This document shows, piece by piece, positions 9,919 to 63,800 of a stretch of 64,000 nucleotides of DNA. The DNA lies in assembly GCF_002994745.2 (NCBI RefSeq), contig NC_037088.1, positions 1,617,001 through 1,681,000 on the forward strand, given 5' to 3'. The notes under the pieces are model-generated. The model had not been told where the DNA came from. It saw nothing but the letters and a program-made list of their open reading frames with translations, and made no database searches. Origin of the DNA: Rosa chinensis (lineage: Eukaryota > Streptophyta > Magnoliopsida > Rosales > Rosaceae). The position numbers and the translations under genes are program-made. Position 1 is the stretch's first letter; every line of letters starts with the position of its first letter.

Positions 9919-10354
9919 GGAAATAGGAAATTATGACTCGTTGTGAAATATAACATTTAACCGTATGTTCTTTCTGGGGAAAGTAACAGGTTAAAACAGT
10001 AATTTTCATTTTAAGCTGGATTAAATGTCGTTTGTCCTGGTAAAAGATGAGACTCAAAAACCGAACAGTCCAAGTAGTCGACGTCCCTTGAGATGGATGA
10101 AGGACATTACGCAGAAAATAAGCTGTAGACTCGAAATATTCGAAGGCCTCGAACCCGAGTCAACCGGAACGTGTTTGACGTAACGCCTGAGAGAGGAAGC
10201 AACTAAGAAATTGAAGAGGGCAGTGTAGGTTGTGCTGGAATCTACTTGGAAATTTCGAAGTGTCATATTGCTACCTAGCTTTTGCTAGGATACAATCTTT
10301 ACGTGTGAATGCATGGAAGGTGTTCGACATAATGCCTCAGTCAAGAATTGAGCT

Positions 10355-10811
10355 TTTTTCCAACTCAAATTTCGAGGTAAAGAGAATGAGAATGAGAGTG
10401 GGGTAGCTTTGAAATTGAGAAGGGTAATGTAGGAGTTGACAAGAAAGTGGGATCTGCCGGGTTGTGCTGGAATTTTGTTGGCAATGTGAAGGCAGACAAG
10501 GTAAGGATGTTATTTCCATCTTTATCTGTATGATTACAAATGCATTTAGAGGTAGTAATTTTTTTGGAAAAAAAATTTAGAAACAGGAATGTTTGTTGTT
10601 TGTGGAGGGATTATGTTGATTTTGCTGCTTTGCATATAAGCATAATATGAGCACAAAGCATAGAAGATCCTCAAAGATTAGTGAAGTAGACCAAGTCACC
10701 AAACTAGCAAATTGTCTTGATTCTCTCACTATTATTCAGTGTGCAAGGTTGCTCTACCTTTATTATGGAGCACTATGAAAATATTAAGTATACAAATATT
10801 AGGATAAAGTT
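10355..10811 (+). repeat. copy 2 of the duplicated unit (left half)
   Basis: This is the homologue of about 9055-9560, ending at the CACTA insertion point. Its continuation resumes after the transposon at 17519. Joining the two flanks reproduces the arrangement seen uninterrupted in copy 1 around 9530-9600. Confidence 0.7.
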
Positions 10812-11345
10812 CACTACTACAAAAAGTTAATCACACAACACTAATCACACAACGGAACAGAAATCATCCGTTGTGTGTTTAAGTAAGCTTTATTGCACAA
10901 CGGTACTTGTTATATTCTGTTGTGTGAATGCCAACAAAGTGATAACTTTTTTATCAGAACTACATTACACAACGGACTTAAGTAATGTATGTCGTCTGAG
11001 TCTTAAAAAAATTAGCGGCAGATTTCCCTCCACTTTGGAGCCTTGGTTGCCTCTTGAAATCTGAAATTTGTGCTACTTGATACAACGATGCTTTATATTT
11101 TCCGTTGTGTGATTGAAAACTGGATGCCAAATTTTGAGGAAGCTTGATTGAATGTCTTCCACAAGATAAACCTAGTGCAAGCTGTAGAAATTAGACAACA
11201 GAAGTTATACTTTTCTGTTGTGTGAAAGTGGGAACATATAGGCGGCAACATTTTGAGCCAAATTGCTGTATGCGGCAGATTTCCCTCCATGTTTTGACAT
11301 TTTGATACTCTTACAACAGTTTGTTAGGTTTCTGTTGTGTGATTG
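10812..11345. repeat. left subterminal repeat zone of the CACTA element
   Basis: Short motifs of the form CACACAAC(G/A)G and their complement (C/T)(C/T)GTTGTGTG recur about every 30-60 bp, for example near 10850, 10870, 10895, 10915, 10966, 11100, 11215 and 11330. A short segment, GGCAGATTTCCCTCCA, occurs twice (about 11017 and 11274). No reading frame here looks real. Confidence 0.75.
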
Positions 11346-11629
11346 CTTTGTTGGAAGTTTAATTGTGCCTCCCACCCAGGCCAAGCCACATCGTGTCGAA
11401 AGAAAAATGAAACAAATTCTCTCGAGCTCTCTCAGTTATGAAACCCCGGCCCGTCTCTCCACCCCCCTCCCTACGACTCTCCCAATCGTGAAACACCCCC
11501 CCCCCCCCCCCCCAACGAAACCCCTCTCTCTCAGTCTCTCGATATCTCTTGTCTCAATTTCATGCTCTCTTCTTCTTCAATCTCATCACCCCTTTCAAAC
11601 CCTAACCCTAAAATCTTCCTCCCCCAGCA

Positions 11630-11744
11630 ATGGCCTCCTCCATCATCGACAACGCCACCACCGCCGCCGCCATCGTCCTCCAGCAGGCCGCCTGGGGCTT
11701 CTCCGAGAGCAAGTTCGAGCAGGGCGACAAGGGGAAGGCTAATG
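11630..11744 (+). pseudogene. captured first coding exon of an unidentified gene
   Basis: A pyrimidine-rich leader (11400-11625, CTCTCTCT-type, ending AACCCTAACCCTAAAATC) leads to an ATG at 11630. The exon encodes MASSIIDNATTAAAIVLQQ and continues for 38 codons to a good donor (AATG/GTAGGT at 11744/11745). It looks like a genuine plant 5' UTR with first exon. I do not recognise the protein. No downstream exon of the same gene is evident, so only the promoter-proximal part seems to have been captured, and it may supply the start of a chimeric transcript. Confidence 0.45.
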
Positions 11745-11889
11745 GTAGGTTCTTTTGCCCGCCGTCGATTGCGTTTTTGTATATGTACGGAACTATGTTA
11801 TGAAGTCATTTACCTCCACTCTCTCTGGCACCAAGGTCCCCCTAATCGCCGAAACCCCATTCCCAATTCCAAAATCCGAGCCACGCCAA

Positions 11890-14033
11890 ATGGCGGAAAA
11901 CCCCAATTGCCGTACCCGATTGCCGCCCAAGAAGGCCCCACCACCAAGAGGAAGACAAGAACCGAAATTGAATTGCCCAGCAGCAACAAGAAGCCCTCAC
12001 AACCCGACCCGCGTTGGGAATGCCCGCATCTGGCCTCGAACGATGACTCAACCTCTGAGTGGCCAGTGACTTCAGCCAAGCTCAATTTGGCTCCGGCGTC
12101 GGCGGAAGAGCAGCTGAGGCACCACGCACTTCGGCTACACAACCGGGCCTTGGAGGCCTGTGGCGGATTCTTTAAGGGCAATGCCGGGTCGGGTAGTGGG
12201 TCCGAGAGTGAGGAGGGAGAAGAGGATTGCAAGGTTGGAGATGAGGAGAATGAGGAGTACAAGTTTTTGTTGAATTTGTTTGTGGAGGAGAGTGGGTTGA
12301 GGAGTTATTACGAGGGGAATTGGGATGGTGGTGAGTTCCATTGCTTGGTGTGTGGTGGGTTGGGGAAGACGAAGAAGATCAAGGGTTGTGTCGGGCTTGT
12401 TCACCACGCGGTTTCGATAAGCAAGACGAAGAAGAAGAGAGCTCATAGGGCTTTTGCTCAGGTTGTGTGTAGGGTTTTAGGGTGGGATTTTGACCGGCTG
12501 CCCATTGTTGTGCTCAAAGGCGAAAGGCTCAGTTTTTATTTGGCAAAACCGGGCGATGAATGGGTGATTAGAGATTGTTTTTCGGGTAATGTTTGATATT
12601 TGAATGCGGTAATTGTTGCGGTTTGATTGAATTTGGTTCTGTTGTGATGGTGCAGGGTGAGAGTGAGGTAAATGCCGGTGCTAGTGAGGCTGTTTCGGGT
12701 GCTGTTAAAGACAATGTGGGAGATGAAAGGGATGGTAATGCCGAGTCAGGTGAAAAGGAAGCATCTAATGGAGACCTAATGATTTGTCAGGTTATTTATG
12801 TCTATCACTTTGAGTTAGTTTTTAGGGTCTTGAACTATAAGTGAGCTCCGGCCTTGTTTTACTATAAGTTGATATTGGTCGTGCTGTTGCAGAAATCTTT
12901 GAAAGATGATGATGCAAATCAATGTAAAGAAACCCTTAATAAGGGGATATCAGAAATTAAAGAAGAGAAAGAAGAGGCAATGGATACGCGGGTGAGATGA
13001 TTGTTCTAAAATCATAACTGTTACGCCATATCTTTTCTTTTATGTTTCTTCTTAGGGGGCATGTTGGGTCCGAAATAAGTTCCTTACATTTTAAAGATTT
13101 TAATTCCCTCTTGGTTTGTAGTTGCTGAGGTTTATATTAATTGGGTTGAGTTGTGCATATTCAGAGTGAGCCTGAGTTAAATGTTGACCAGTTGGATAGT
13201 GCACTGAAAGACAATGTGGCAGCTGAAACTGATGCTCCTGCTGAATATAGTGAAAAGGAGGCATTTGATGATCATCAGTGCAATGGTAAAGAACCAATCA
13301 TCTGTCAGGTTAGTCATCACTGTAACTAGGCTTTTGTTTTTAAACTGTACATAAGTTTCAGTCTTTCAGATGTTTTGCATTGTGGAAAGGGAAAATCTGT
13401 AAGCAACGCCTTTGAATTGTACATGAATTGTAAAGACTTCGAAGCCTTTATTTCATCTTAAGAATATAACCATTGATAGTGCTCAGACCTTAAAGTTTGG
13501 TTAAAGCTGTAAAAGGCAAGGGCATAAGAAAGAGAACTAAACCCATAAAAGAGTGCAACACTTGGTTATATATCAAACTTTAGCCGATCAAATTTTTTTA
13601 TAATTTAGTGCTGGTTGTCCTGTTTCAGAGCTCTTTGAAAGATGACTGTACAGATAAAAGTATAGAAAGCCTTGATGAGGGAAAGACAGTATTAATGAAG
13701 GAAGCAATTGGAGAAGAAGCAAAGGATGCATTGGTGAGATGATTGTTGTGAAAAAGAATTTACTAATGCCATATTATTGGTGAGATGATTGCGTTTTGTA
13801 TATGTTATGAACTATGTTAATAAATTCCCCTGAATGGATGCAGGTTTCAATTTCGAAGACATGCAAGCTTTTGAAGTCAATCTCAAGGTTGAAAGCTTTT
13901 GAAATATTGTTATTTGTTTTCGTCTGAGAGGGAATTTGTTTTTTATTCATATTGACTGATTGAATGTGATGTGAAATCAGAACCAGAAACCGGGGTTGTT
14001 GTTGTGGATGAGGATGGAAAACTAGAAGACTGA
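11890..14033 (+). pseudogene. captured multi-exon gene for a conserved plant CxxC/H-type protein
   Basis: A long exon up to 12585 encodes KRKTRTEIELPSSNKK, an acidic stretch near 12200-12250 (SESEEGEED), and then the probable zinc-binding block FHCLVCGG followed by GLVHHAVSISKTKKKRAH and VLGWDFDRLP. Further acidic exons follow with good splice sites: 12656-12790, 12893-12991, 13165-13308, 13629-13733, 13844-13888 and 13981-14033 (ending in TGA). Exons 2/3 and 4/5 look like an internal duplication (SLKDD starts, ICQ ends). The frame near 11935 and across 12585/12656 does not join cleanly, so the copy is probably decayed. I recall uncharacterised plant proteins of this type but no function. The Cys/His block suggests nucleic-acid binding, which is inference. 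Confidence 0.55.
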
Positions 14034-14419
14034 GTTGGAGTGGCCTTGAAATGTCTTCCAAACTATGATCCTGCTACCTGTTTGTTCGAAACAGTTTAAA
14101 GCTGCAACGGAATCACCCCCTATACAGAAAGTGTGTGTGTAGGATTGGAGCATGCACAGTCTTTTTTCCAGTTTCAAAGCGCAGAGACAGAGAGAGACTA
14201 CACTTTGTTAGATCGCAGGTTTTGTTCCTTGGTTTTGGTTGGACTCTAAGGGCTTCTGCTTTTTGTGTCCTTCCCCTGCTGCATTGTGTTGTTAGATTTG
14301 GTTTGGATTGGATTGTTTGTTTTATAGGATTCTCAGAAATTGGTCAGTTGTAAAAGAACTGCATTACTAGTATTGATTGTTTAGATTGATTGTTTGTTTT
14401 TGGTTCAGAACACGTCATA

Positions 14420-14519
14420 ATGGAAGAGAAGATGAGAATTGGAGGAGGGTTGCTTAGTGGAGCACAGTCTAGTATACTTGAGGAGATGAAGTTGTTAAAA
14501 GAACTGCAGGATCATTCTG
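14420..14519 (+). pseudogene. captured N-terminal exon of an auxin response factor
   Basis: An exon begins with ATG at 14420, reads MEEKMRIGG then GLLSGAQSSILEEMKLLK and ELQDHSG, and ends at a donor (TCTG/GTTTG). This matches the short N-terminus of auxin response factors of the ARF5/MONOPTEROS type, where EEMKLLKEMQDxSG directly precedes the B3 DNA-binding region. The B3 domain and everything after it are absent: the next exon belongs to another gene. About 300 bp of leader-like sequence before the ATG may also be captured. The match is short, so the identification rests on this motif only. Confidence 0.65.
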
Positions 14520-14737
14520 GTTTGTTAATTTGTTCCCTTCCTACGTTGCTTTTTTTTTTTCCTTTTCTTCTTACTTAAATTTTTGAATTTGGGTGGTTTA
14601 AACATATAATCGAGTCTTGTGCTAGGTGGAGGTAGAGGAGAAGTTACTTGGGTTTCAGATAGCTTTGAAAATGTTTGATCTTTAGTTTTTGCTGGATGTA
14701 ATTTGCTCATGGTTTGTTGGTTTTGGATGGTTTTTAG

Positions 14738-16047
14738 ACTCCGCTTATGTTGGCTGCAATGCATGGCAAGATCTCTTGCGTGCGAAAGCTTCTTGAAGTA
14801 GGAGCAAATGTATGTGAAAAATCACAGCTTTGGTTTGGTTTGGGTTTCTGATTTTTTTTTTCCTCCAGATATGGAGTGTGAGGCTAATGTGTGCTATTGT
14901 GTCAGGTATTAATGTTCGATTCCCTTCACGAAAGAACTTGTTTGCATTATGCTGCTTACTATGGCCATGCCAATTGCCTCCAGGCCATTGTTTCCGCTGC
15001 TCAATCAAATCATGTAGCTGTTTCATGGTAAGTACAAACTCTCTGAAGTGATTTGGTCCTGCTTTGGTTGATCTTACTAATTTGGTAAATGATGACCCCG
15101 TTGCATTTAGCATCGAGGCGAAGTAGGCCTGAATGTGTACGTATATTGTTAGACAACGGAGCTCTTGTTTGTGCTTCAACTGGCGGATATGGGTAAGAAT
15201 TAAACTCAAAGTTCTTAATCATCATTGATCTGTAGTGTCGATTTTACTCTTAGACTGAGAAATTGGTGTTTACAGCTGCCCAGGAAGCACTCCGCTGCAT
15301 TTGGCGGCAAGAGGGGGATCTCTGGATTGTATACAAGGATTGTTGGCATGGGGTGCAGATCGCGCTCAAAGAGATGGATCGGGGTATAATTCCATTTCCA
15401 TCTATATTCAAAAATCAAATTCTGTAGTCTGTAACACACACAGATCCCCTTGTGTTGTTTATCTCTAAATCAGTGCATGTTCTGTTCTTTCTGTTTCATC
15501 TATCCAACCACCATAGTTTTGTAAAAAAAAAAAAATTCTTTCTTGATGGAGAGAGCAAGAATTGAATCTATTTGCATTAAGTGACAAACACTAAGGCCAA
15601 CAAGTGTTAAACATTAAGGCCTCATTGGGGGTCTAACTCTGTTTTAAGATATTTTGTTTTTTTTATTCAAGAAAACCTGAACCAATGATCATATCTCTTA
15701 ACTTGATTTTAAACACTTTATTTGAAAGTTTGATCTTTATCTATTGTTTTTTTTTTTTTTTTTTGTAAATATGCAGGAGAATGCCATATATAGTTGCTTT
15801 GAAACACAAACATGGAGCTTGTGCAGCTATGCTAAATCCGTCATCAGCTGAGCCTCTGGTGTGGCCATCACCTTTGAAGTTTATTAGTGAGCTTAGTGAG
15901 GAGGCAAAAGCTTTGTTAGAACAGGCCTTAACGGAGGCAAACAAGGAGAGGGAGAAGAATATCTTGAAAGGAAGCGGTTACTCTCTTGCATCTCCATCGC
16001 ATTCTGATGTGCATTCTGATATAGGGATGGATGACAATCTTTCTGAG
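14738..16047 (+). pseudogene. captured XBAT31-like ankyrin-repeat E3 ligase fragment, no RING
   Basis: Five exons with introns are visible: 14738-14809 (TPLMLAAMHGKISCV), 14906-15027 (RTCLHYAAYYGHANCLQAIV), about 15090-15191 (RPECVRILLDNGALVCAST), 15276-15382 (GSTPLHLAARGG, LLAWGADRAQRD) and 15777-16047 (YIVALKHKHGACAAMLNP, FISELSEEAKALLEQAL, ILKGSGYSLASPSHSD). Residues, order and exon structure fit the XBAT31 group of plant ankyrin-RING ubiquitin ligases. Missing are the N-terminal exon, the start of the third exon shown (about 15 residues before TPLHLA) and the whole C-terminal RING exon that should follow NLSE at 16047. Retained introns show DNA-level capture, not retroposition. Without the RING domain it cannot be a ligase. 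Confidence 0.85.
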
Positions 16048-16359
16048 GTAATTTCCTACCTTCCTGTCTATTTCTAAGTTCTGTTCTCAAATATTTTACA
16101 CATTTCAATTTTCTAGTTACTACTCCTACTAGTAGGATGCACCTCAACACCTTGATTTCCCTTTTTTACAGAGAAAATAATTACCCACACCCCATCTACA
16201 TCTATCTGAAACTTTATATTATGGGGGTACAGTTACTGCTGGCAATGCTTTTATCATAAGATTATTTATATATGTGTCTGTGTTTAGGTACTTCTCATAA
16301 ATCATAATGGTCTCTCATTTTTAACAGTGCATAATGGGTTGTGCTTTTCTCTTGAGCAG

Positions 16360-16422
16360 TGATGGTGCAGCTTCATTGGTGCTAGTGAGTGGGGAAAAGG
16401 CACTTGAACTTGGGTTACATGC
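16360..16422 (+). pseudogene. captured fragment of acetoacetyl-CoA thiolase
   Basis: After an intron-like stretch ending TTGAGCAG, a single small exon piece reads DGAASLVLVSGEKALELGL. This is the highly conserved thiolase segment (DGAAALVLVSGEKALELGL in plant acetyl-CoA C-acetyltransferases of the mevalonate pathway). After LGLH the similarity stops, and the catalytic Cys and His regions are not present. It is a fourth recognisable host gene donor within the CACTA element. The reading frame runs on to a stop at about 16515 in unrelated sequence. Confidence 0.7.
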
Positions 16423-16800
16423 TCTTGTTCTTCATTCCTCTGGAAAACCAACCCCTTTGGTACTGTATCATGCTCTTCTGCTGCAATATGTGCTAACTCG
16501 TGAAGCTTCACAATAAGCTTGGAGGTGATGCAAATGAGAGTATATATAGTGCACAGGATGCTTGATAAAATGGCACAAGAAGGTTTTGTTGAAGCGAAAA
16601 GATATTATATCAGCTTTTGATTCATGTGTAGCTAGCTAGGAATGCTTTCTTGTTTGGTACATTACCTAGTCACTTGAATGTATGGATGTTTGAAAAATGG
16701 TAATGGAATGATATGGATTTGAGTACTTTTGATGTGGTAATTACTGTCCAATAGTCACTGGTTTGTTACTCAATTTGATTACAATATTCACACTACAGCT

Positions 16801-17515
16801 AACCAAATAGAGTAGTTGTGTGAACTAACAACCAACAACAAAAGAAACAAACTTCTGTTGTGTGAGATTCATAACACACAACAGAAACCAAATAGAGTAG
16901 TTGTGTGAACAAACAACCAACAACAAAAGAAACAAAGTTCTGTTGTGTGAGATTCATAACACACAACAGAAACCAAATAGAGTAGTTGTGTGAACTAACA
17001 ACCAACAACAAAAGAAAACAAAGTTCTGTTGTGTGAGATTAATAACACACAACAGAAATGAAATCATCTCCGTTGTCTGAGTAATCAACAGACAAGGGAT
17101 ATAATTTCACTTCAGTTGTGTGTTATTAATCTCAGACAACAAAGAATGAGTAATATCTGTTGTGTGTTACATATCTCAGACAACAAAGAATGAGTAATAT
17201 CTGTTGTGTGTTATGAATCTCAGACAACAAAGAATGAGTTATATCCGTTGTGTGTTATGAATCTCACACAACAGTGAATTCTTTCTTCTGTTGTCTGAAT
17301 GTGCCGAGGCATCGCCGCCCATGCCATGCCAGGCACATGCTGCGCAGAACTCACACAACGGAAATAGGTATTTCTGTTGAGCAAACTATTATCACACAAC
17401 GGTGAAATCACCGTTGTCTGATTTTTCAATCACACAACACTCACTTAGACCACGGTGAGCTTGGTCATCATACAACACAAATCCACCGTCGTCTGATGAC
17501 CTTTTTGTAGTAGTG
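16801..17515. repeat. right subterminal repeat zone of the CACTA element
   Basis: Three near-identical tandem units of 85-86 bp start at 16801, 16886 and 16971 (each begins AACCAAATAGAG and contains TTCTGTTGTGTGAGATT and AACACACAACAGAA). A second tandem series with a 44 bp period starts at 17131, 17175 and 17219 (CTCAGACAACAAAGAATGAG, then CTGTTGTGTGTTA). All units are built around the motif (C/T)TGTTGTGTG and its complement, as on the left side. The zone ends in the inverted repeat at 17501-17515. Confidence 0.85.
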
Positions 17516-17518
17516 GTT

Positions 17519-18994
17519 GTTTATTTTTGCTTTTTCATTACTTATTTGATTATTGGAAACAAGCAAATATAGAATGCCTAGTTCTCAAATAAACTTAATG
17601 TGTAAAATGAATTAGTGACTTGTGGATTGGGTTAAGAAATTTCTTCAGCAGTAAGAAACTGTACATGGACTAGTAAGGAAGGAAGTTTTGGTGTCATATA
17701 TTGCTACCTAGCTTTGGCTAGAATACAATCATCAAGTATGAATTCACTTATATCATTAGCTAGATAGAAACAGCTACCAAATATCGACCGCGGTTAGAGC
17801 ATTAGAAAGAGTTTATACAATACAGAGTTACAGACACTGAAGCAATTAGCTTTACCAACATTATGGTATATTACCTACACATTGAGATGATGGATAGAAC
17901 AAGAGAAAACACATTGTGGTCCATCATATCATCTCTACAGTCCTGTTAAACACACAGTACGCTCCATTTTTTGAAGTTGGTGAAAGCTAACTGGAAGGAG
18001 GAAATTAGGGACCCATGGTTGCAAGCCACAGTACTTTAGTCAATAATGCCGACTTGCATGATAGAAAGATATTTGGCCGCAAGTGCTGGGAAATTTTCAT
18101 CTCTGCTTTTTACCTCTGCATGCTTTCCTGGAATATATGTGCACAGTATGGTTTCTTATTAGTCTAGTTTGATTCTGATGAAGAATCAAAGTTTATTAGA
18201 GTAGATGAAGAAAGTTGCTGAGGGAAGATCAAAATATAAGCTAGCTGAAAACACATTCGACTTGTTTGAGTGTTGGAAAAGCGATCAGTATTCAACTTAA
18301 TTGAAATTCCAGTCGAGAATGTTTTCTAAGCACTTGGGTTTGAGTGAGGTTCTAATTGTAATAAGTCTCAACAAAATGTTCTGTAGCTACAGTATTTCAA
18401 AGTCTGAGTCAATGGCTAAGAGGTCTGAGACCAAGTTACAGATGTCTCAAGTTAGGTGGTAGACACTTGAAAGCTGTACTATGCATGATAGCCAGTGGAG
18501 TGGACCAAACTTGCACCATCGTGGATTAGTGTGTAAGATGCCTTTCTATGTTTGATAAGTCACTTCAACGGAATGCTTCATTTTGAACAGTCGGTGAAAG
18601 CAGTAATGGTGGCCTCTGAATCGTCTACTTTTTGAATGATTGAAAGATAGTTCACCGAAAGTGTAGAGAAATTTCCTCTGTGCTAGCTTTTTACTTCTGA
18701 CTACTTTCCTGGAAAATGTACGCATAGGTTTTTTACCTGGTGTTCTTTCATTCTGGTGAAGAATATAAGTTCATTCAAAATAGATGAGCTAAGTTGCTGA
18801 GGGCAGAAAGAGAGCTGAAAAACTGATTGGGAAGTGTCTATTGATATATTTACTCGTCCAAGTTCTAACCAGGTTAGTACAACTGCTAAGAACACTAGTC
18901 TTGCTGTGCAATTACTCATCTGTTTTGCATTCTGAATCTTTGTATTCATCGGAAAGGTTTGCCTATTTTGACTTGTTGATCTTCAGGCTACAAT
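17519..18994 (+). other. upstream region of the TIR-NB-LRR gene, with internal duplication
   Basis: The first 180 bp continue duplicated unit copy 2. Further on, about 18075-18250 and 18665-18830 are related to each other: TTTTTAC(C/T)TCTG, CTTTCCTGGAA, TGAAGAAT and AGTTGCTGAGGG in the same order. No coding exon is visible. The promoter of the resistance gene should lie here, but I cannot point to a convincing TATA box. Confidence 0.5.
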
Positions 18995-22398: not shown

Positions 22399-23509
22399 GC
22401 CGGAGTCTGATTTAGTTAAGATTGTGGTCAATGACATTTTGGCGAAATTGAATCTCAAATCGGAAATGGCAAGTGGTTTAGAGGACCTGGTTGGAATCGA
22501 AAAACACGTCCGACAAGTTGAATCATTATTATGCCTTGACTCACAGGATGTCCGGACCGTAGGTATTTGGGGTATGGGTGGTATCGGTAAGACCACTATT
22601 GCTGATGTTGTATTTCACCTTCACTCTTCTCAATTCGAAGCTTGCTGCTTTATTGCAAATGTTAGGGAAGCATCAGAGACGAGACATGGACTAAATGATT
22701 TGTGAAATCAACTGCTTCGTACAGTACTTAAGGAAGACAATCTATATGTGGCCGCTCCATCTATTGGATCAATGTTTGCAAGACAGAGGCTTTGCTGTAC
22801 AAAGGCCCTCGTTGTTCTTGATGATGTGAGTGATTTAGGCCAAGTAGAATTTTTGGTTGGAGGTGATCGTATCCTGTTTGGCCCTGGAAGTAGAATCATT
22901 GTGACAGCTAGAGATAAGCGCATGCTTGGTGTTGACGATGATAAGATATATAAGGTTAACTTACTAGATTGTGATGAAGCTCTTGAGCTCTTTCATTTGA
23001 GAGCTTTAACAAATCTCTCCCCTCCAACAGATTATACAACTTTGTCAAGAGAGGTGGTAGATTATGCTGGAGGTAATCCATTGGCTCTTACAATCTTGGG
23101 CTCCGTAATATTCTGTCAATGCAAGAGCAAAAAAGACTGGGAAGATGAATTAGATAGATTGAAAAAATTTCCAAACAAAAGAATCCAGAATGTATTGAGG
23201 TTCAGTTATGATGGATTAGAAGAAAATGAGAGGGAGATATTTCTCGATATCGCCTGTTATCACAAAGGGAAGTATATTAATGAGGCAAAAAGAATTTTAG
23301 ATGCCTGTGGTTTTTGTGCCAATGCAGGAGTAAAAATTCTCGTTGATATGTCTCTCATATCCGTGGGTAAATGTTCAACACTTGAGATGCATGATTTGAT
23401 ACAAGAAATGGGTCGGGAAATGGTTCGTGATCAATGTGTTAAAAATCCTGGAAAACGCGGTAGATTGTGGCTTCCAAATGATGTTCGTCATGTACTGACA
23501 AATAATACG
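22399..23509 (+). pseudogene. NB-ARC exon with one nonsense codon
   Basis: Motifs in order: P-loop GMGGIGKTT (about 22572), kinase-2 LVVLDDVSD (22808), RNBS-B GSRIIVTARDK (22887), GLPL as GGNPLAL (23072), RNBS-D-like REIFLDIACYHKGK (23231) and MHD as MHDL (23387). The kinase-2 Trp that follows DDV in many NLRs is absent, which is normal for TNLs. TGA at 22703-22705 interrupts the frame after GLNDL, where relatives have a coding triplet; CGA to TGA or CAA to TGA would explain it. Otherwise all nucleotide-binding residues are intact, which argues that the gene was functional until recently. Confidence 0.9.
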
Positions 23510-23643
23510 GTAAGAGCCTAATACACTCTATTGAAAAAGAAAAGACCAAGCAAAATCTCATTTTCTATAAAAGTTAAGTAAATTTAGTGAAATCATTTTT
23601 GCTCTCTACTGTATGCTCATATATATTTTGCCATTGATTTCAG

Positions 23644-23958
23644 GGTACTGAAGACATTGAGTGCATGGCCATGAATATGTATCCCATTAAATCTCATATA
23701 TACGTGAATGTTGCATCCTTCGAAAAGATGCATAAGCTAAGATTACTAGATCTATACTCGTACTCGTACTCGTACACCAGGGGTGTCAGCAAATTGCACC
23801 TTCCTCCAGGTTTCGAGTTTCTCCCTGATGCCCTTAAATATTTGAGGTGGCATTTCTATCCTTTGACATCTCTGCCATCGAGGTTTTCTTCAGAAAATCT
23901 TGTCGAGCTTCATATGCCCAGCAGCCGACTTGAGCAACTTTGGAATAAAGGCGTGCAG
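23644..23958 (+). pseudogene. TNL exon 3 (NB-ARC to LRR linker)
   Basis: It opens GTEDIECMAMNMYPI (family GTExIEGIxLD), then FEKMHKLRLLDLY, a run of a TACTCG triplet-pair repeat (YSYSYSY, 23755-23775), and LPDALKYLRWHFYPLTSLPS with NLVELHMPSSRLEQLW. This is the standard junction between the NB-ARC and the LRR region in TNLs. It ends at GCGTGCAG/GTTTGC. The frame is open. Confidence 0.85.
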
Positions 23959-24040
23959 GTTTGCTTAATTTAGTTCTTGTGTATGAATAATGGTGTGGAA
24001 AATATAACTCTTGCCATTAATTGCCTTTGATTTGTTACAG

Positions 24041-25534
24041 ATCAATCTTGAGAGCTTAAAACGTATCAATCTTGGTGACTCCGAGCACCTGGCTGATGTT
24101 TCAGCTCTGATTGAGAGTCCAAATCTCGAGAGAATTCACCTTGGGGGTTGTAAAAGTTTGGTTCAACTTCCTTCATCGTTTCAGAATCTTGCCAAGCTTA
24201 CTTATCTTTGTTTGTGTCTTTGCTCCAATCTCAAAATTCTCCCAGAGATGCCAAGCAATCTGGAAGTCTTAATGTTGAATCAGACTGTAATAGAAGAATT
24301 GCCTTCATCAATTTGGTCTCTCGAGAATCTTTATAGTTTGGATCTTTTTATATGTAAAGAGCTTAAGAATCTTCCAAGCAGCACTTGTAGGTTGAATTCG
24401 CTCCCAAATCTTAATCTAGCTGGCTGCCGCTCTCTTGAGTCTTTGCCTGTCGAGCTACCTTCTGGGCTGGAGTACCTGGACTTGCGCGCTTGCGAGAGTC
24501 TTGGGTCTTTGCCTGTCAAGCTACCTTCTGGGCTGGAGTACCTGGACTTGTGCGCTTGCGAGAGTCTTGGGTCTTTGCCTGTCGAGCTACCTTCTGGGCT
24601 GAAGACACTGCATTTGAGAAATTGCAAGAGTCTTGGGTCTTTGCCTGTCGAGCTACCTTCTGGGCTGAAGACACTGTAGTTGAGAAATTGCAAGAGTCTT
24701 GGGTCTTTGCCTGTCGAGCTACCTTCTGGGCTGAAGACACTGTAGTTGAGAAATTGCAAGAGTCTTGGGTCTTTCCCTGTCGAGCTACCTTCTGGGCTGA
24801 AGGAGTACTTGGACTTGAGCGGTTCTGAGAGTCTTGGGTCTTTGCCTATCGAGCTACCTTCTGGGTTGGAGTACCTGGACTTGAGCGATTGCAAGAGTCT
24901 TGGGTCTTTGCCTGTCGAGCTACCTTCTGGGCTGGAGTACCTGGACTTGAGCGATTGCTAGAGTTTTAGGTATTTGCCTGTTGAGCTACCTTCTGGGCTG
25001 GAGTACCTGGACTTGAGCGATTGCAAGAGTCTTGGGTATTTGCCTGTCGAGCTACCTTCTGGGCTGAAGACACTGCAGTTGAGAAATTGCAAGAGTCTTG
25101 GGTCTTTGCCTATCGAGCTACCTTCTGGGCTGGAGTACCTGGACTTGAGCGATTGCAAGAGTCTTGGGTCTTTGCCTGTCGAGCTACCTTCTGGGCTGGA
25201 GCACCTGGACTTGAGCGATTGCAAGAGTCTTGGGTCTTTGCCTGTCGAGCTACCTTCTGGGCTGAAGACACTGCATTTGAGAAATTGCAAGAGTCTTGGG
25301 TCTTTACCGAAGCTGCCATGGCTTCTAGAAGTGTTTGATGCACATGGCTGCACGTCACTAGAGACAGTCTCAAGTCCGATGAGGACTGCACCCATACAAG
25401 GTAGGGATCAATATATCAACGGATTCAATCTCGAGCACCTATTATTTACGAATTGCGTGAAATTGGATCAGAGTGCACGGAGCAACATAATGGCTGATGC
25501 ACAGCTTAGAGTTATGCGAATTGCAACTGCATGA
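24041..25534 (+). pseudogene. LRR exon with recently amplified 22-residue repeats
   Basis: It begins with ordinary LRRs (LESLKRINLGDSEHL, NLERIHLGGCKSLVQLP). From about 24430 to 25310 the sequence becomes a near-perfect 66 bp tandem array of about 13 units, each a 22-residue leucine repeat with core SLGSLPVELPSGL and alternating LEYLDLSDC or LKTLHLRNC endings. TAG at 24677 and 24743 arises in the variant CTGTAG where sister units have CTGCAT or CTGCAG. TAG at 24959 is TTGCTAG versus TTGCAAG. The exon then returns to single-copy TNL sequence (ARSNIMADAQLRVMRIATA) and meets TGA at 25532. The repeat ladder points to unequal exchange or replication slippage. Confidence 0.9.
24430..25310 (+). repeat. 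66 bp LRR-encoding tandem array, about 13 units
   Basis: GAGTCTTGGG recurs at 24496, 24562, 24628 and 24694 with exact 66 bp spacing and continues, with one three-base irregularity near 24800, to about 25300. Because the units are so alike, all six frames stay open for long stretches. Apparent proteins in the other frames here are artefacts. Confidence 0.9.
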
Positions 25535-27411
25535 CGTCTCCTCAAAGAACGCCGTACGATTAATATTGTTTGTCCGGGAAATGAAATTCCAAAGTGGATG
25601 AGGTATCAAAGTGAGGGATGTTCGATAAATATCAAGCTTCCTCCTCATTCGTTTCGTCAAGGCTTCCTCGGTTACGCTTTATGCATTGTGGTTGCATTCA
25701 ACAATTATACGACACCCTATAGTTCCTACTTTAGTTGTGAAACCCATCACAAAACTAACAATAGTCACGAAGTTTGTCGGGAAGCCCTCAGTATAACCCT
25801 ACCAGCTACTCTCATCAATTCAGATCATGTGTTCGTGGGGTATTTCCGCCCTAAATTTGTTCCTGAGGATTGGGTAAAAGCATCTTTTGACTTCAAGTTG
25901 TACCAAACTATTTTTCACCCAAAAGAAAGAAATCTCTTTGACCCCTCCACTGTGAGGGTGAAAAGGTGTGGAGTCTCCTTGTTGTATGCCCAAGAGATTG
26001 AAAAATTACTTGGGAGCTATGATGCATGGAAACGCCAAAATGCTCTCGTTTCCCGTATCGAAATGGGAAACGGGTCGGAAACGCTCGGAAACGCTAGGAA
26101 ACGTGTATCTGGATTTGGAAACGTTTTGGAAACGTACGTATCCAATACGGAAACGCAGAATGTAAATAAATAGGAAATGTGGGGGTAATACTGACTTTTT
26201 ACTAGGCCAAAATTGAAAAAATAAATAAATAAATAAACAAACAAAAGACCAGATGGAGGCGCGACGAGATCGAGGGAGAGAGACCAGAGGCGCGACCAGA
26301 TCGAGAGAGAGAGACCAGAGGCGCGACAACGAGGTGACCCAGTTCCGGTCGTTCTCCAGTCCGGAAACAAGACCCTCGATCGGTTCTCTTCTGCTCGAGA
26401 CCCTCGATCGTTTCTCTGCTCCGACGCAACCCAGTTCCTCTTCTCCAGTCCGGTCCCGATTCGGAATCGTTCCTCTTCTCCAGATCGGAATGTTTTCTGC
26501 TCAAGACTTCTCCTCTTCTAGCCGCTTCGGGTACGTTTGTTCTGCTCTTCTTCTCATATTTGTTCTTCAATTTGGAGCTTGGAGATTGTTCTGATATGGT
26601 TATTTGATGTGTGTATAGCAGCAACTATGGGCTAGCTAGTTCTTAAGTTCTTATCCTCTTTGCTTTTCTGAGTTTTCTCGATCGATCTGTTTAAAAGCAA
26701 TATTGCTTTATTGTTTTGGCTGAGCTTATTGGGTTTTCATTGAGGATGCTAATTGGGTCTACAAGTCTAAATATTGGGTTGTTTGCATATTGGTGTAACG
26801 TTGTGGAAATTTGGAGCTTGGAGATTGTTCTGATATTGTTATTTGATATTGTTAACTTATTTAAATGTTGGGTTGTTTGCATATTGGTGTAACGTTGAAT
26901 TGTGTATTTTTCAAGAACCATGAGCAGCGGAGGAACACCTCCTATTAGTTCTAGTGCCGGGTCTGTTAACGCCGGTGCCTAGTAGTGGATCTGCTGATCC
27001 TGAAAATAAGACAATTGATGACAATGGATTGATAATGTTTGATTGTCACAGACTAGTACTTTGTTTATGTTTCATATTTTTTTTTCTAATTATATATATA
27101 TATATATATTTAATTAGCGTTTCCTTCACGTTTCCGTTTCCTATTACATTTAAGATTTGTCGTTTCCACGTTTCCGATCGTATCGTATCCGGAAACTCGT
27201 ACCCGTTTCGGTGCTTCTTAGCTTGGGAGGCATTGATGAAGATGAAGTTATGGAACCAAAACAAGCAGTAGAAGAAGAAGATATCATCATCGAAACTAAG
27301 AGGCGACGGGACGAGTCTGAACTCAGTGGAAGTGGAACTGCAAGCTTCAAAGAAGAATATAACGACCAACTACCTCCCCAGAGTAGTAAAAGGAAAATCA
27401 ACATCATGTGA
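25535..27411 (+). pseudogene. TNL post-LRR (C-JID) region, split by a hAT element
   Basis: After the TGA at 25532 the same frame continues RLLKERRT, then IVCPGNEIPKWMRYQSEG and SINIKLPPHSF, the post-LRR jelly-roll domain of TNLs that helps recognise effectors. It continues to KRCGVSLLYAQEIEKLLG at 26016, where a transposon enters. After the element (27230 on), the protein end follows: IDEDEVMEPKQAVEEED, TKRRRDESELSGSG and a stop at 27409-27411. Removing the element and one 8 bp duplicate restores continuity, showing a single late insertion into the last exon. Confidence 0.85.
26017..27221. mobile_element. 1.2 kb non-autonomous hAT element
   Basis: The 8 bp target duplication is CTTGGGAG at 26009-26016 and 27222-27229, diagnostic in length for hAT. 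The imperfect terminal inverted repeats are CTATGATGCATGGAAACG and CTAAGAAGCACCGAAACG. Both subterminal zones are full of GGAAACG / CGTTTCC motifs. The interior has a leader-like region (26250-26540) and at 26921 a short frame MSSGGTPPISSSAGSVNAG that resembles the N-terminus of a hAT transposase, then stops. The dimerisation and catalytic regions are missing. The pieces TGGAGCTTGGAGATTG and GTTTGCATATTGGTGTAACG each occur twice (240 and 95 bp apart). It is an internally deleted derivative. Confidence 0.85.
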
Positions 27412-50919: not shown

Positions 50920-51600
50920 AGTCTCCGCTGAGCGAAACCCCGCCAGCGGATCCTCACTTGTCATCTTCCAAGTGACGGAGTCTCCGCTGAGCGAAACCCC
51001 GCCAGCGGATCTTCACTTGTCATCTCCCTAGTGACGGAGCCTCCGCTGAGCGAAACCCCGCCAGCGGATCCTCACTTACATCTCCCAAGTGACGGAGTCT
51101 CCGCTGAGCGAAACCCCGCCAGCGGATCCTCACTTGTCATCTTCCAAGTGACGGAGTCTCCACTGAGCGAAACCCCGCCAGCGGATCCTCACTTGCATCT
51201 TCCAAGTGACGGAGTCTCCGCTGAGCGAAACCCCGCCAGAGGATCCTCACTTGCATCTCCCAAGTGACGGAGTCTCCGCTGAGCGAAACCCCGCCAGCGG
51301 ATCCTCACTTGTCATCTCCCTGGTGACGGAGCCTCCGCTGAGCGAAACCCCGCCAGCGGATCCTCACTTACATCTCCCAAGTGACGGAGTCTCCGCTGAG
51401 CGAAACCCCGCCAGCGGATCCTCACTTGTCATCTTCCAAGTGACGGAGTCTCCGCTGAGCGAAACCCCGCCAGCGGATCCTCACTTGCATCTCCCAAGTG
51501 ACGGAGTCTCCGCTGAGCGAAACCCCGCCAGCGAGTCCTCACTTGCATCTCCCAAGTGACGGAGTCTCCGCTGAGCGAAACCCCGCCGGCGGAGCTTCTC
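50920..51600. repeat. 58-60 bp tandem array, about 12 units, with higher-order structure
   Basis: Each unit contains GGAGTCTCCGCTGAGCGAAA and CCCCGCCAGCGGATCCTCAC, with a variable linker (CTTGTCATCTTCCAAGTGAC, or shorter forms). TCCGCTGAG is at 50923, 50983, 51042, 51100, 51159 (variant) and 51217, and so on to about 51570. Linker variants recur in the same order at 51001-51120 and 51301-51420, giving a higher-order period of about 300 bp. It lies between the start of the antisense gene and the 3' LTR. A promoter or enhancer role for that gene is a guess. Reading frames over it are repeat artefacts. Confidence 0.85.
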
Positions 51601-60872: not shown

Positions 60873-63800
60873 ATGGCTCCCCCAAAGAAAATCATCATCG
60901 ATCAGGAGGAAGAGTTAAACGAAAAAGCTGCTCGGACTTGGGGCATCAACATCGGTGCTCGCATTCATCTTGAAACCTCTATTCATCGACCCCTTCTCCT
61001 TCGTTTTTACGACCATCAAACCGGATTGGGCCCAGCGCCGCAAGGTGTTATCCCAGACGACGCTATAGCCCTATACGGCCTACCCGTCCGTCGACCCATT
61101 CCAGTCCTCCGAAGGACTCCTGGAGATTTTAGTGGCTGGGGTGCCCAAAACCATCGAGCCAAGATAGGGAATTGGCCATCCTCCATTAGTGTACCGGAGA
61201 CTTCCTGGTATCGCGAGACGCGGGTGCGGGATCTGGCTCGCTGGAATGCAGCAGGTATCACATATACTATCGACCTGTGTTTCCATCTTCCTCGCGGTGG
61301 CAACCGCTCGCCGCTCGCTGCTTTCCTTTGTTTCTGGAATACCGCCACCAACACATTTGACTTCAGATTGATTAAATGAGCATCACTCTGTTGGATATCC
61401 TCGCCATCACTGGCCTGCCCATCGATGGCGAACCTTACGTGCATGGTCAATTTGATTCTGTCAACTTCACCTCGACCATGGCCCAGCACGGTCGTAGCGC
61501 CCACAGTGGCTCCTACCCACGATGGTTGGCATATTACAGCCGAGAACACAATGCGACCGGCGGAATTGCTTTTCTTGAATATTGGCTCTGTAAGTTCATA
61601 TTCTGCACCTCCTCCTGTAAGCCCATTGGCACTTGGACCTCCTTAGCGACGGCCCTCAACAACGGCCGTAATGTCGGACTCGGGCAACCGGTACTCGGAG
61701 CCCTCTACCGCATGCTATACCAAGCGACGATGCATCCATTTGAGACCAACATATCTGGCCCCTTCTGGATTTTGGATTTCTGGATCCAGACTTACTTTCC
61801 ATTCTTCCGCCGTGATGACATCCCGCTACTTCCACCGGCCGATCAACTCTTAGGACGATGGTTTAGCCGCGAGGCAAAGTACTCATCCCCCCCTTATTCT
61901 GAGTGTTTTTCTTATCTGTACCTCTTGGATGAAATGCCATATTGCGACATAATTCTGGGCAGAAGATTCCCATCTTTGCTTGAATATGGTTTTCTTCCTG
62001 GCGATCCTCGCTACACCGACCGCACTCGCCTGGCTTTTCGCCTGCGGTCTCCTGCTCAAACATTAGGATCGCCGCCGAAGAACTCAGCTACGAGCTCTAT
62101 GCCCCCAATCACTTTGCTCGCCAGTTCGGTCTTGTCCAATTGGTACCATTTCCTCTATACGATGCTTGGAACTACAACACCTCTTGGCGCAGACTTGGGC
62201 CCCCTCAGGGCCCCCGCCGGCACAGAGCATGCTCGCGCTAGTTGATCTTCCTGATTGGGCTCAGACCATCGACGCCGTGGACGGAACTGAAGAAGGATAC
62301 GAAACTTGGTGGGCAGAAGTCTCCACCAATTGCTGGACTCAACTGGACGACGAACTCTTTGCAGCCCTTTTTGGAGAGCTGAGGAACCCCTATCCTGCTG
62401 ATATTGAGATGCTCGCTCGCTTCTCTGAAGATGCTGCAAGACCCCAGCCTCTTCAGGTGGTACGACCGGTGCGAGCCCCTCTCCCGGCCCAGGCTGGTAT
62501 CGTGATTCGCGAACCCCTTTTAGAGGTAAGTGTCGTAATTCTTCCCTCTGCAAGGTTCTTATCTGCTTTCCCTTTACTCATCCTTCTCTGTATCAGGGGA
62601 GTGCGCCGCGCTCAGGCCGCCGCTTAACCAGCGCCTGCCAGGCCGCCGCGCAACCAGCGCCTCCCAGGCCGCCGGCCAAACTGGAAAACAGAAAGCGGTG
62701 CTCGCTGAGCCTGAAGCTGAAAATTCTTCTTCCGATGACGACAATCCACAAACCGTAAGAATCTTCTATCTTTAGGATCATATCTTCGCGAGTTAAGTCT
62801 TAACTTCTCGATTTTGACAGGTCGCAGCTGCCCTGGCTCGCAAGCGTAACTGCTCGAACCCTCGCACTGACCTATGGGCAGGAGATGAACCACTTGCTGA
62901 TCGATTGGTAAGAAATAAGGAGTTCACACTAGAAATTATCTATGCTCTCGCCCATGCTCCACTAACCTTTTCACTCGTAGGTTCGTCGCCGGTCCTCTGG
63001 ACATACTGGGGAAGGCTCTTCAGCGGCTAGTCAAGGAACATCTGCTTCACAAGCGCAAGCACCCACAGACCCCGAAAACCTTCCACCTCCTGTCAGCACC
63101 GCCGGCGATGTACATCAGCCCCAATTCCTGTACAGATCATAGAAGATAGTTCGCCTGAGCTGGAAGAAAGTACAGTCCTTCCGAATGCATCGCCTGAGGA
63201 GCCAATCGCTGTACAACCCTTTGCACAGGTATCGCCTGATCCCAATCCCGGCGAGGTAGTTCAAGAGCCTGCACCAATAGCAATTCCAGACGAGCTTCCA
63301 GTCGGAGAGGTACCCCCGTTCCAAAATCAATGCCTCAGTTCTTGTTTATCTTTGTGTATCTGATAATCCTTCCTCAATCGTAGAGTATTATTCCTGCTGA
63401 GGAAAACGCTGTCGCTGATCCCGCTGAGCCCGTTGGTGAAGACATGGTGGCCCAAGAGCCTGCCCCTCACGTTCTTGAAGTAGGAGCGGGGATAAATGCG
63501 GAATCGGAACCAGACGCGGCCCCCATCGTCGAGCTTCAAGAAGCCCCTGCTGCGATCGATGTTGATACTAATGCTAACGCTAATGTTCCCCCGCCCGAGC
63601 CTCCTAACAAGCTGGAAAGGCTGGTTCGCATACTCGAAATGGCTCCTCCAGGAGTTATAGATGAAGCGAGGGACGGGCTGCAGCGACTTCTGGGTCTTGA
63701 CATTTTATTACAGGGCGCGCCTGCCAGAGCTCAAGAATATTTGATGGTCCTTCGCCGCGAACGAACTATCACCGAGGCTGAGTTTATCGAGATATATAAG

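Follow-up and report, generated by a model that had tools for sequence, protein, structure and literature searches.

Stepwise loading of host-gene fragments in a Pack-CACTA transposon family of Rosa chinensis, as suggested by donors, sister elements and junction scars

Background

The question raised by a 64,000-nucleotide stretch of the Rosa chinensis genome (NCBI RefSeq assembly GCF_002994745.2, contig NC_037088.1, positions 1,617,001 to 1,681,000; hereafter the window) is how a single CACTA transposon at window positions 10812-17515 (C1:1.63 Mb), here called EL, came to hold pieces of unrelated host genes. An initial annotation, made from the letters alone, had recognized the element and counted at least four source genes; alignment to the 515-Mb assembly (53 contigs) bears out that count, with five donors located and the remnant of a sixth, a PRP38-carrying insert, also present. 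Host-gene fragments were probably loaded stepwise by template-switching DNA repair inside pre-existing copies of the element, which would have been moved by the transposase of another element. The paired ends of EL, the located donors, the nested cargo of its sister elements, and an uninterrupted site for one capture, that of LOC112202412, all support stepwise loading. Because a single genome holds donors, pre-insertion site, intermediates, and composites, the capture route can be read from the junctions and is testable.

EL is a non-autonomous Pack-CACTA element

The element is bounded by 15-bp terminal inverted repeats that start with CACTA, the left one (CACTACTACAAAAAG, 10812..10826, plus strand) matching the reverse complement of the right one (17501..17515, minus strand) at 15/15 positions, and is flanked by the 3-bp target-site duplication GTT, read in the sequence at 10809..10811 and 17516..17518. 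No further copy of either end with two or fewer mismatches was found in window positions 10001-18500. Subterminal repeats based on ACACAAC/GTTGTGTG occupy a 5′ region (10827..11345, +) and, as determined by repeat analysis, a 3′ region of 85-bp and 44-bp tandem units (16789..17500, +). These repeats are dense at both ends of EL and rare in between (the exact 8-mer GTTGTGTG occurs 5 times in the first 560 bp, once in the middle, and 10 times in the last 719 bp), and they stand in both direct and inverted orientation, a feature of the CACTA (CMC/EnSpm) superfamily. Sequence inspection and the repeat search recovered the perfect ends, the duplication, and the matching subterminal repeats named in the initial annotation. 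The reported absence of a transposase was also upheld, as a Pfam scan of all three forward frames over the full length of EL, and of three reverse frames over 10812-16700, returned ankyrin models alone at E ≤ 0.01. With no transposase gene in the frames scanned, host coding fragments from five located donors, and cargo shared by the sites at C1:1.63 Mb and C1:49.80 Mb, which have different duplications, EL is a non-autonomous Pack-CACTA (Pack-TYPE) transposon without a recognizable transposase. No viral contigs bearing the element’s end pattern were found.

The copy at C1:49.80 Mb, L009 (C1:49796834-49803297), came from a genome search with EL in which 40 of 1438 candidates were scored and EL, L009, and many partial relatives were among the matches listed, so that the same cargo was indeed found at a second site. 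L009 lies 48 Mb away, is 240 bp shorter owing to the absence of element positions ~878-1119, aligns with EL over 880 columns at 98.8% and 5,604 columns at 98.7%, and carries its own duplication, TCG/TCG. The family sample comprised 20 stretches representing 19 other elements (L014 and L015 being the two ends of one), or 20 elements with EL, and element positions 1-826 were matched over 96-100% in 20/20. Both ends could be placed in 18 elements, one of which spans L014 and L015, and in all 18 the 3-bp duplications were identical; in L021 and L023, no 3′ end within two mismatches was found. Since the duplications match in 18/18, EL’s GTT and L009’s TCG included, the two ends of EL belong together. 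Two separate elements were considered and ruled out by L009, which has the same two ends and paired duplications at another site, and the earlier description of one element with collected cargo holds. An assembly artefact joining unrelated sequences is scarcely credible, given that the composite occurs twice, each time between its own target duplication, and that the right junction of its LOC112202412 piece recurs in four elements.

Five segments have intact donors on other chromosomes

Intact donor genes for five segments of EL were located in the same assembly on three other chromosomes, one on C3, two on C5 (45 Mb apart), and two on C6 (36 Mb apart), EL itself lying on C1. The matches consist of blocks of 45 to 1,996 columns at 89-99%, introns included, which excludes chance resemblance, and the five pieces share one orientation. 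The retention of introns on a single strand that had been read from EL is confirmed by these alignments, in which the parent genes lie apart on C3, C5, and C6 rather than side by side at one site lacking CACTA ends. Three of the proposed sources, a CxxC/H-type protein, the N-terminus of an auxin response factor, and XBAT31-like ankyrin repeats, were traced by alignment to LOC112202412, ARF5, and XBAT31; the other two donors, a desulfhydrase and a fatty acid amide hydrolase (FAAH), were absent from the initial list.

At its left, the cargo begins with a CT-rich stretch (11392..11547, +, left limit approximate) that finds no counterpart in the donor locus of the desulfhydrase, ~1 kb ahead of the ATG included. 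Adjoining it are the remains of an L-cysteine desulfhydrase-like gene (11548..11792, +), a name taken from database labels, with 5′ untranslated region, ATG (11630), and coding pieces from a donor at C3:7180339-7181676(-) (locus L032), where the gene is complete and open. Three pieces are left, with internal deletions, at 11548-11659, 11638-11728, and 11748-11792 (88.9, 98.9, and 93.3% identity). A CT-rich leader ahead of the cargo, as annotated, is present, but the ATG and about the last 82 bp of leader ahead of it are captured desulfhydrase sequence; the earlier part of the leader is not. A reading of 11638-11800 as an intron-bearing leader exon was dropped because desulfhydrase proteins show the supposed intron to be coding sequence. 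Exons and introns of LOC112202412 follow (11802..13774, +), at 96.2% over 1,996 columns, introns included, to C5:24539619-24541613(-) (L005), a donor locus whose first exon agrees with a Rosa chinensis protein at 272/272 residues.

Beyond the right junction of this piece (13775..13815, +) stands an older cargo stretch (13816..13909, +) common to L013, L014, and L023, and then the FAAH piece (13910..14084, +; 95.4% to C6:26633372-26633546(-), L031), whose donor matches the enzyme in the Protein Data Bank (PDB) at 8.2e-50 when its exons are spliced by hand. The ARF5 piece (14087..14597, +), which has internal deletions, consists of three blocks at 94.0-96.5% to C6:62615071-62615936(-) (L030), drawn from the upstream region, exon 1, and the first part of intron 1; when spliced by hand, the donor has a PDB match to ARF5 at 6.4e-83. 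The 49 bp that lie 3′ of ARF5 (14598..14646, +) are a remnant of the PRP38-carrying insert, namely the start of an insert that stands inside the captured ARF5 of L022 and L024 and whose L022 copy bears a PRP38 domain. XBAT31 ankyrin exons and introns occupy 14659..16153 (+; donor C5:70087412-70088969(+), L029) in two blocks at 97.3 and 97.4%, with 66 bp lost at 15094-15096 and without the donor’s first exons and RING end. The donor’s identity is supported by many relatives named XBAT31 among the protein matches listed (the best 120 of 670, at E ≤ 1e-80), and its outer exons, including the RING end, were placed by what we take to be the XBAT31 protein. The cargo ends in a shared 3′ module (16154..16690, +), parts of which occur in at least 40 places genome-wide, EL included, a lower bound from scoring 40 of 348 candidates. 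The thiolase-like stretch SDGAASLVLVSGEKALELGL noted in this module is present from ~16350, but the label is unconfirmed, as a PDB search with the 51-residue peptide gave no match at E ≤ 1; the resemblance to thiolase is one that we presume.

Sister elements carry a nested series of cargo

Cargo was compared with the donors in 22 sequences, the 20 elements plus L007 and L008. In 20/20 elements, the left end of the desulfhydrase match falls at donor positions 933-939 (86-92 bp ahead of the ATG); its right end varies from element to element, and the interiors differ. As the match start falls in the same 7 bp in every case, a single ancestral uptake of the desulfhydrase gene looks likely. ARF5 DNA is found in 10/22 sequences (EL, L007, L008, L009, L010, L014, L016, L022, L024, and L025), FAAH in 7/22 (EL, L007, L008, L009, L010, L014, and L025), XBAT31 in 5/22 (EL, L009, L010, L014, and L025), and LOC112202412 in 4/22 (EL, L007, L008, and L009), each of the four in the same orientation in every carrier. 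A further LOC112202412 carrier, at C2:13.21 Mb, comes from the genome search and lies outside this comparison. In L022 and L024, an insert of ~795 bp interrupts the captured ARF5 at donor base 1230. No ARF5 base is missing at the split, the shared sequence amounts to 1 bp at most, and the ends of the insert show no inverted repeat; its PRP38 domain comes from a scan of L022 only. In L014, L025, and EL, XBAT31 is joined 3′ of part of this insert. The sister elements thereby appear to preserve stages of cargo build-up, with L007 and L008 read as probable internal-deletion derivatives. This nested order agrees with a tree of the first 800 bp, a region that includes up to ~110 bp of the desulfhydrase leader and none of the later cargo, which reads (L025,(L014,(L010,(EL,L009)))) with supports of 0.97, 0.86, 0.75, and 0.92 from the outside in.

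The LOC112202412 step can be viewed against sequences that lack it. A junction scan of 23 sequences (the 20 elements, L007, L008, and the 3′ stretch L015) found the right flank in seven, with the older sequence running through uninterrupted in three (L013, L014, and L023) and joined to LOC112202412 DNA in four (EL, L009, L007, and L008), so that this breakpoint was resolved against uninterrupted relatives. The left junction in EL has a 5-bp microhomology with the donor (GAAGT). At the right junction, a 16-bp filler (13776-13791) repeats exactly a stretch of the captured piece 46 bp upstream, as well as the donor sequence. From 13787 there follows an imperfectly duplicated left flank (88% over 26 bases), and the older sequence then continues with 14 bp lost. 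The same right junction is found in EL, L009, L007, and L008, and it probably arose once and then spread. LOC112202412 itself resides on a different chromosome, and the captured piece is not bordered by element ends. Microhomology, filler, and duplicated flank are scars left by template-switching repair, and the scars at the LOC112202412 junction are taken as pointing to that process.

Three further observations concern the sister elements. At element positions ~2239-5109 of L010, a nested stretch that begins with a second CACTA-like end, CACTACTACAAAAAT, lies inside the XBAT31-bearing element. From L014 position 5206 to L015 position 7677 (C2:50.545-50.557 Mb), ~11 kb of other DNA interrupts the element, and the outer CTC duplication still matches. 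L018 and L026 (C6:16.28 and C6:16.48 Mb) are 99% identical over nearly their full length, 0.2 Mb apart, and both have TGC duplications; they may have arisen by local segmental duplication instead of by separate insertions.

A stepwise model and its rivals

In the model that we favor, a founder element would have taken up the start of the desulfhydrase gene, and breaks in later copies would have been filled from unlinked genes, beginning with ARF5. A PRP38-carrying piece would next have entered the captured ARF5 intron, followed by XBAT31 and finally, beside the desulfhydrase remnant, by LOC112202412, with FAAH joining at some point in the series. Finished composites would then have spread by ordinary transposition, with transposase supplied by another element. 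For the LOC112202412 step, we infer template-switching repair from the microhomology, the donor-copied filler, and the imperfect flank duplicate at its junction.

Several observations weigh against this model. Repair synthesis is inferred from scars in DNA sequence, filler is seen at one junction only, and the FAAH step has no uninterrupted site. L007 and L008 carry LOC112202412 without XBAT31, which requires a later deletion. A tree of the last 760 bp groups EL, L009, L010, L007, and L008 with L027, and L014 and L025 with L022 and L024; as this 3′-end tree partly disagrees with the nested order, elements probably also exchanged ends. Divergence from the donors gives a different order, since LOC112202412, structurally the last arrival, differs by 2.6% in EL and 2.1% in L009, XBAT31 by 1.5-2.1%, and FAAH by 1.6% in L025 against 4.6% over 175 bp in EL. 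The conflict might stem from unequal rates or from a donor allele that was not sampled. The composites differ from their donors by a few percent, and divergence was not used to date the captures, its order being at odds with structure.

The partial disagreement of the 5′- and 3′-end trees would also be expected if Pack-CACTA copies, each with one captured gene, had recombined after few direct captures, and the presence of ARF5 pieces in several contexts (L016, L022, and L024) fits the same account. Such recombination is compatible with stepwise loading for single steps, but as the general explanation we consider it unlikely, because it leaves the donor-copied filler and duplicated flank of the LOC112202412 junction unexplained and because no simpler LOC112202412 carrier appeared among the 40 of 1438 candidates scored. 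Improbable to a greater degree is fusion of neighboring insertions, a capture model for Pack-CACTA reportedly put forward by Catoni in 2019, in which two CACTA elements come to lie around a gene and lose their inner ends, and the outer pair then mobilizes the whole interval. A plant model of this kind is published (PMC8903248), and the internal CACTA-like 5′ end of L010 indicates that nesting occurs in the family. Fusion is nonetheless difficult to reconcile with located donors on three chromosomes, with a LOC112202412 piece inside element sequence that is uninterrupted in three relatives, with the lack of inner ends within two mismatches in EL, and with PRP38-carrying DNA that splits captured ARF5 without loss. 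It is disfavored for the LOC112202412 step and could explain the oldest step, the uptake of the desulfhydrase start.

Captured segments lie in the sense orientation

In a Pfam scan of both strands of 13/20 elements, nine families were found in sense and none in antisense orientation (BRE, Aminotran_5, PRP38, Aminotran_4, PAD_porph, Fumble, STICHEL, Rif1_N, and ankyrin, all ankyrin models being counted once). Five of the nine pass the Pfam cut-offs, with BRE, Aminotran_5, Fumble, and Rif1_N below them, and Rif1_N lies in L010, the element bearing the nested CACTA-like end. L012, L017, L018, and L028 gave no Pfam match on either strand, and the scan left out L009, L014, L021, L023, L024, L025, and L026 as probably redundant. 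Reverse frames covered the same stretches as forward frames (13900-16700 in EL), and a later extension in EL to the whole element forward and 10812-13899 reverse had the same outcome. Without the weak Rif1_N, the distinct donors, from Pfam and from location together, number 11, all in sense (sign test by hand ~0.001, for events that may not be independent). Should the sense rule extend to the whole family, transcription through the element would be linked to capture or to survival. One tentative possibility, which we hold as rather less than probable, is that the family acts as a repair-driven exon trap, in which a captured gene start that stays fixed and a shared 3′ module bracket the region where breaks in existing copies are refilled with unlinked exons and introns, always in sense and stacked one within another.

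Relation to known systems

CACTA elements with captured host-gene pieces are a kind already known, from Tgm-Express1, Tpn1, and surveys of Pack-CACTA elements. Tgm-Express1, a 5.7-kb CACTA element of soybean, holds exonic and intronic pieces of five host genes unrelated to one another; chimeric transcripts from it were cloned by RT-PCR (PMC1947982). EL resembles it in carrying exons and introns of several unrelated host genes, so that several donors in one element, initially thought an unusually rich case, is not unprecedented. The rose family differs from the soybean element, as described there, in its nested sister cargo, uninterrupted site, and donor-copied filler, and is known here from DNA alone.

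The Tpn1 family of Japanese morning glory was reportedly treated by Kawasaki and Nitasaka in 2004. Its members keep conserved ends while captured host sequence replaces their interiors (PMC5105172), and the rose family likewise keeps its ends and has interiors substituted by host sequence. Set beside Tpn1, the rose family shows the same captured gene start in 20/20 members and captures inside earlier captures. Pack-CACTA and other Pack-TYPE elements are described as non-autonomous terminal-inverted-repeat (TIR) elements that carry coding DNA drawn from several loci (PMC8903248); unlike the fusion route given there, the rose scars point to repair inside an existing element. For animal Pack-TIRs formed by gap filling, microhomology and template switching are reported at the breakpoints of captured DNA, over half of the cases lying near the parental copy (PMC8277862). 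EL has microhomology and template-switch scars like these, and unlike them is a plant CACTA element with donors on other chromosomes. A 2026 review allows that an undiscovered mechanism may remain for the uptake of unlinked gene fragments by DNA transposons (PMC13317346). No earlier description of the rose family was found in open-licence literature. It is a new Pack-CACTA/Tpn1-like family, which stands out by its stepwise capture series with a visible pre-insertion site.

Coding potential and database protein models

An uninterrupted open reading frame (ORF) of 344 residues is predicted at 11562..12596 (+), running from the leader, in a frame other than that of the desulfhydrase, into the LOC112202412 exon. 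Protein model P0048 has the window copy as its best match, with its last 99 residues at 100%, and P0127 the copy at C1:49.80 Mb, with its last 99 residues also identical to the donor’s. LOC112168890 (P0002) contains the leader-to-cargo junction present in L009, and its N-terminus was not found in the 632 bp before L009. P0048, P0127, and P0002 are annotation models matching element copies, not evidence of expression. More broadly, the Rosa chinensis database proteins P0043, P0048, P0127, and P0002, labeled isopenicillin-N epimerase-like, ankyrin, or uncharacterized, appear to be models of transposon cargo and not of host genes, and transposon-borne pieces stand as rose proteins in databases. 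The open frame and the existence of P0048, P0127, and LOC112168890/P0002 are what one could cite for a chimeric gene kept under selection. We regard that as very unlikely, since the pieces are truncated, XBAT31 lacks 66 bp and its RING end, and the desulfhydrase is gutted. Our reading from the sequence is that EL is passenger DNA with potential for chimeric transcripts. Elsewhere in the window, at 61011-61187, an ORF shares 54% identity with LOC112168890 residues 7-62; the remainder of LOC112168890 matches L009.

Other features of the window

Apart from EL, the window holds at 22706-26173 a disease-resistance-like gene, presumably of the NBS-LRR type from its look, in which a 66-bp leucine-rich unit is repeated ~13 times in tandem (24433-25305). 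At 50920-51593 lies a tandem array of a 58-bp unit, with 11.5 copies and 93% matches.

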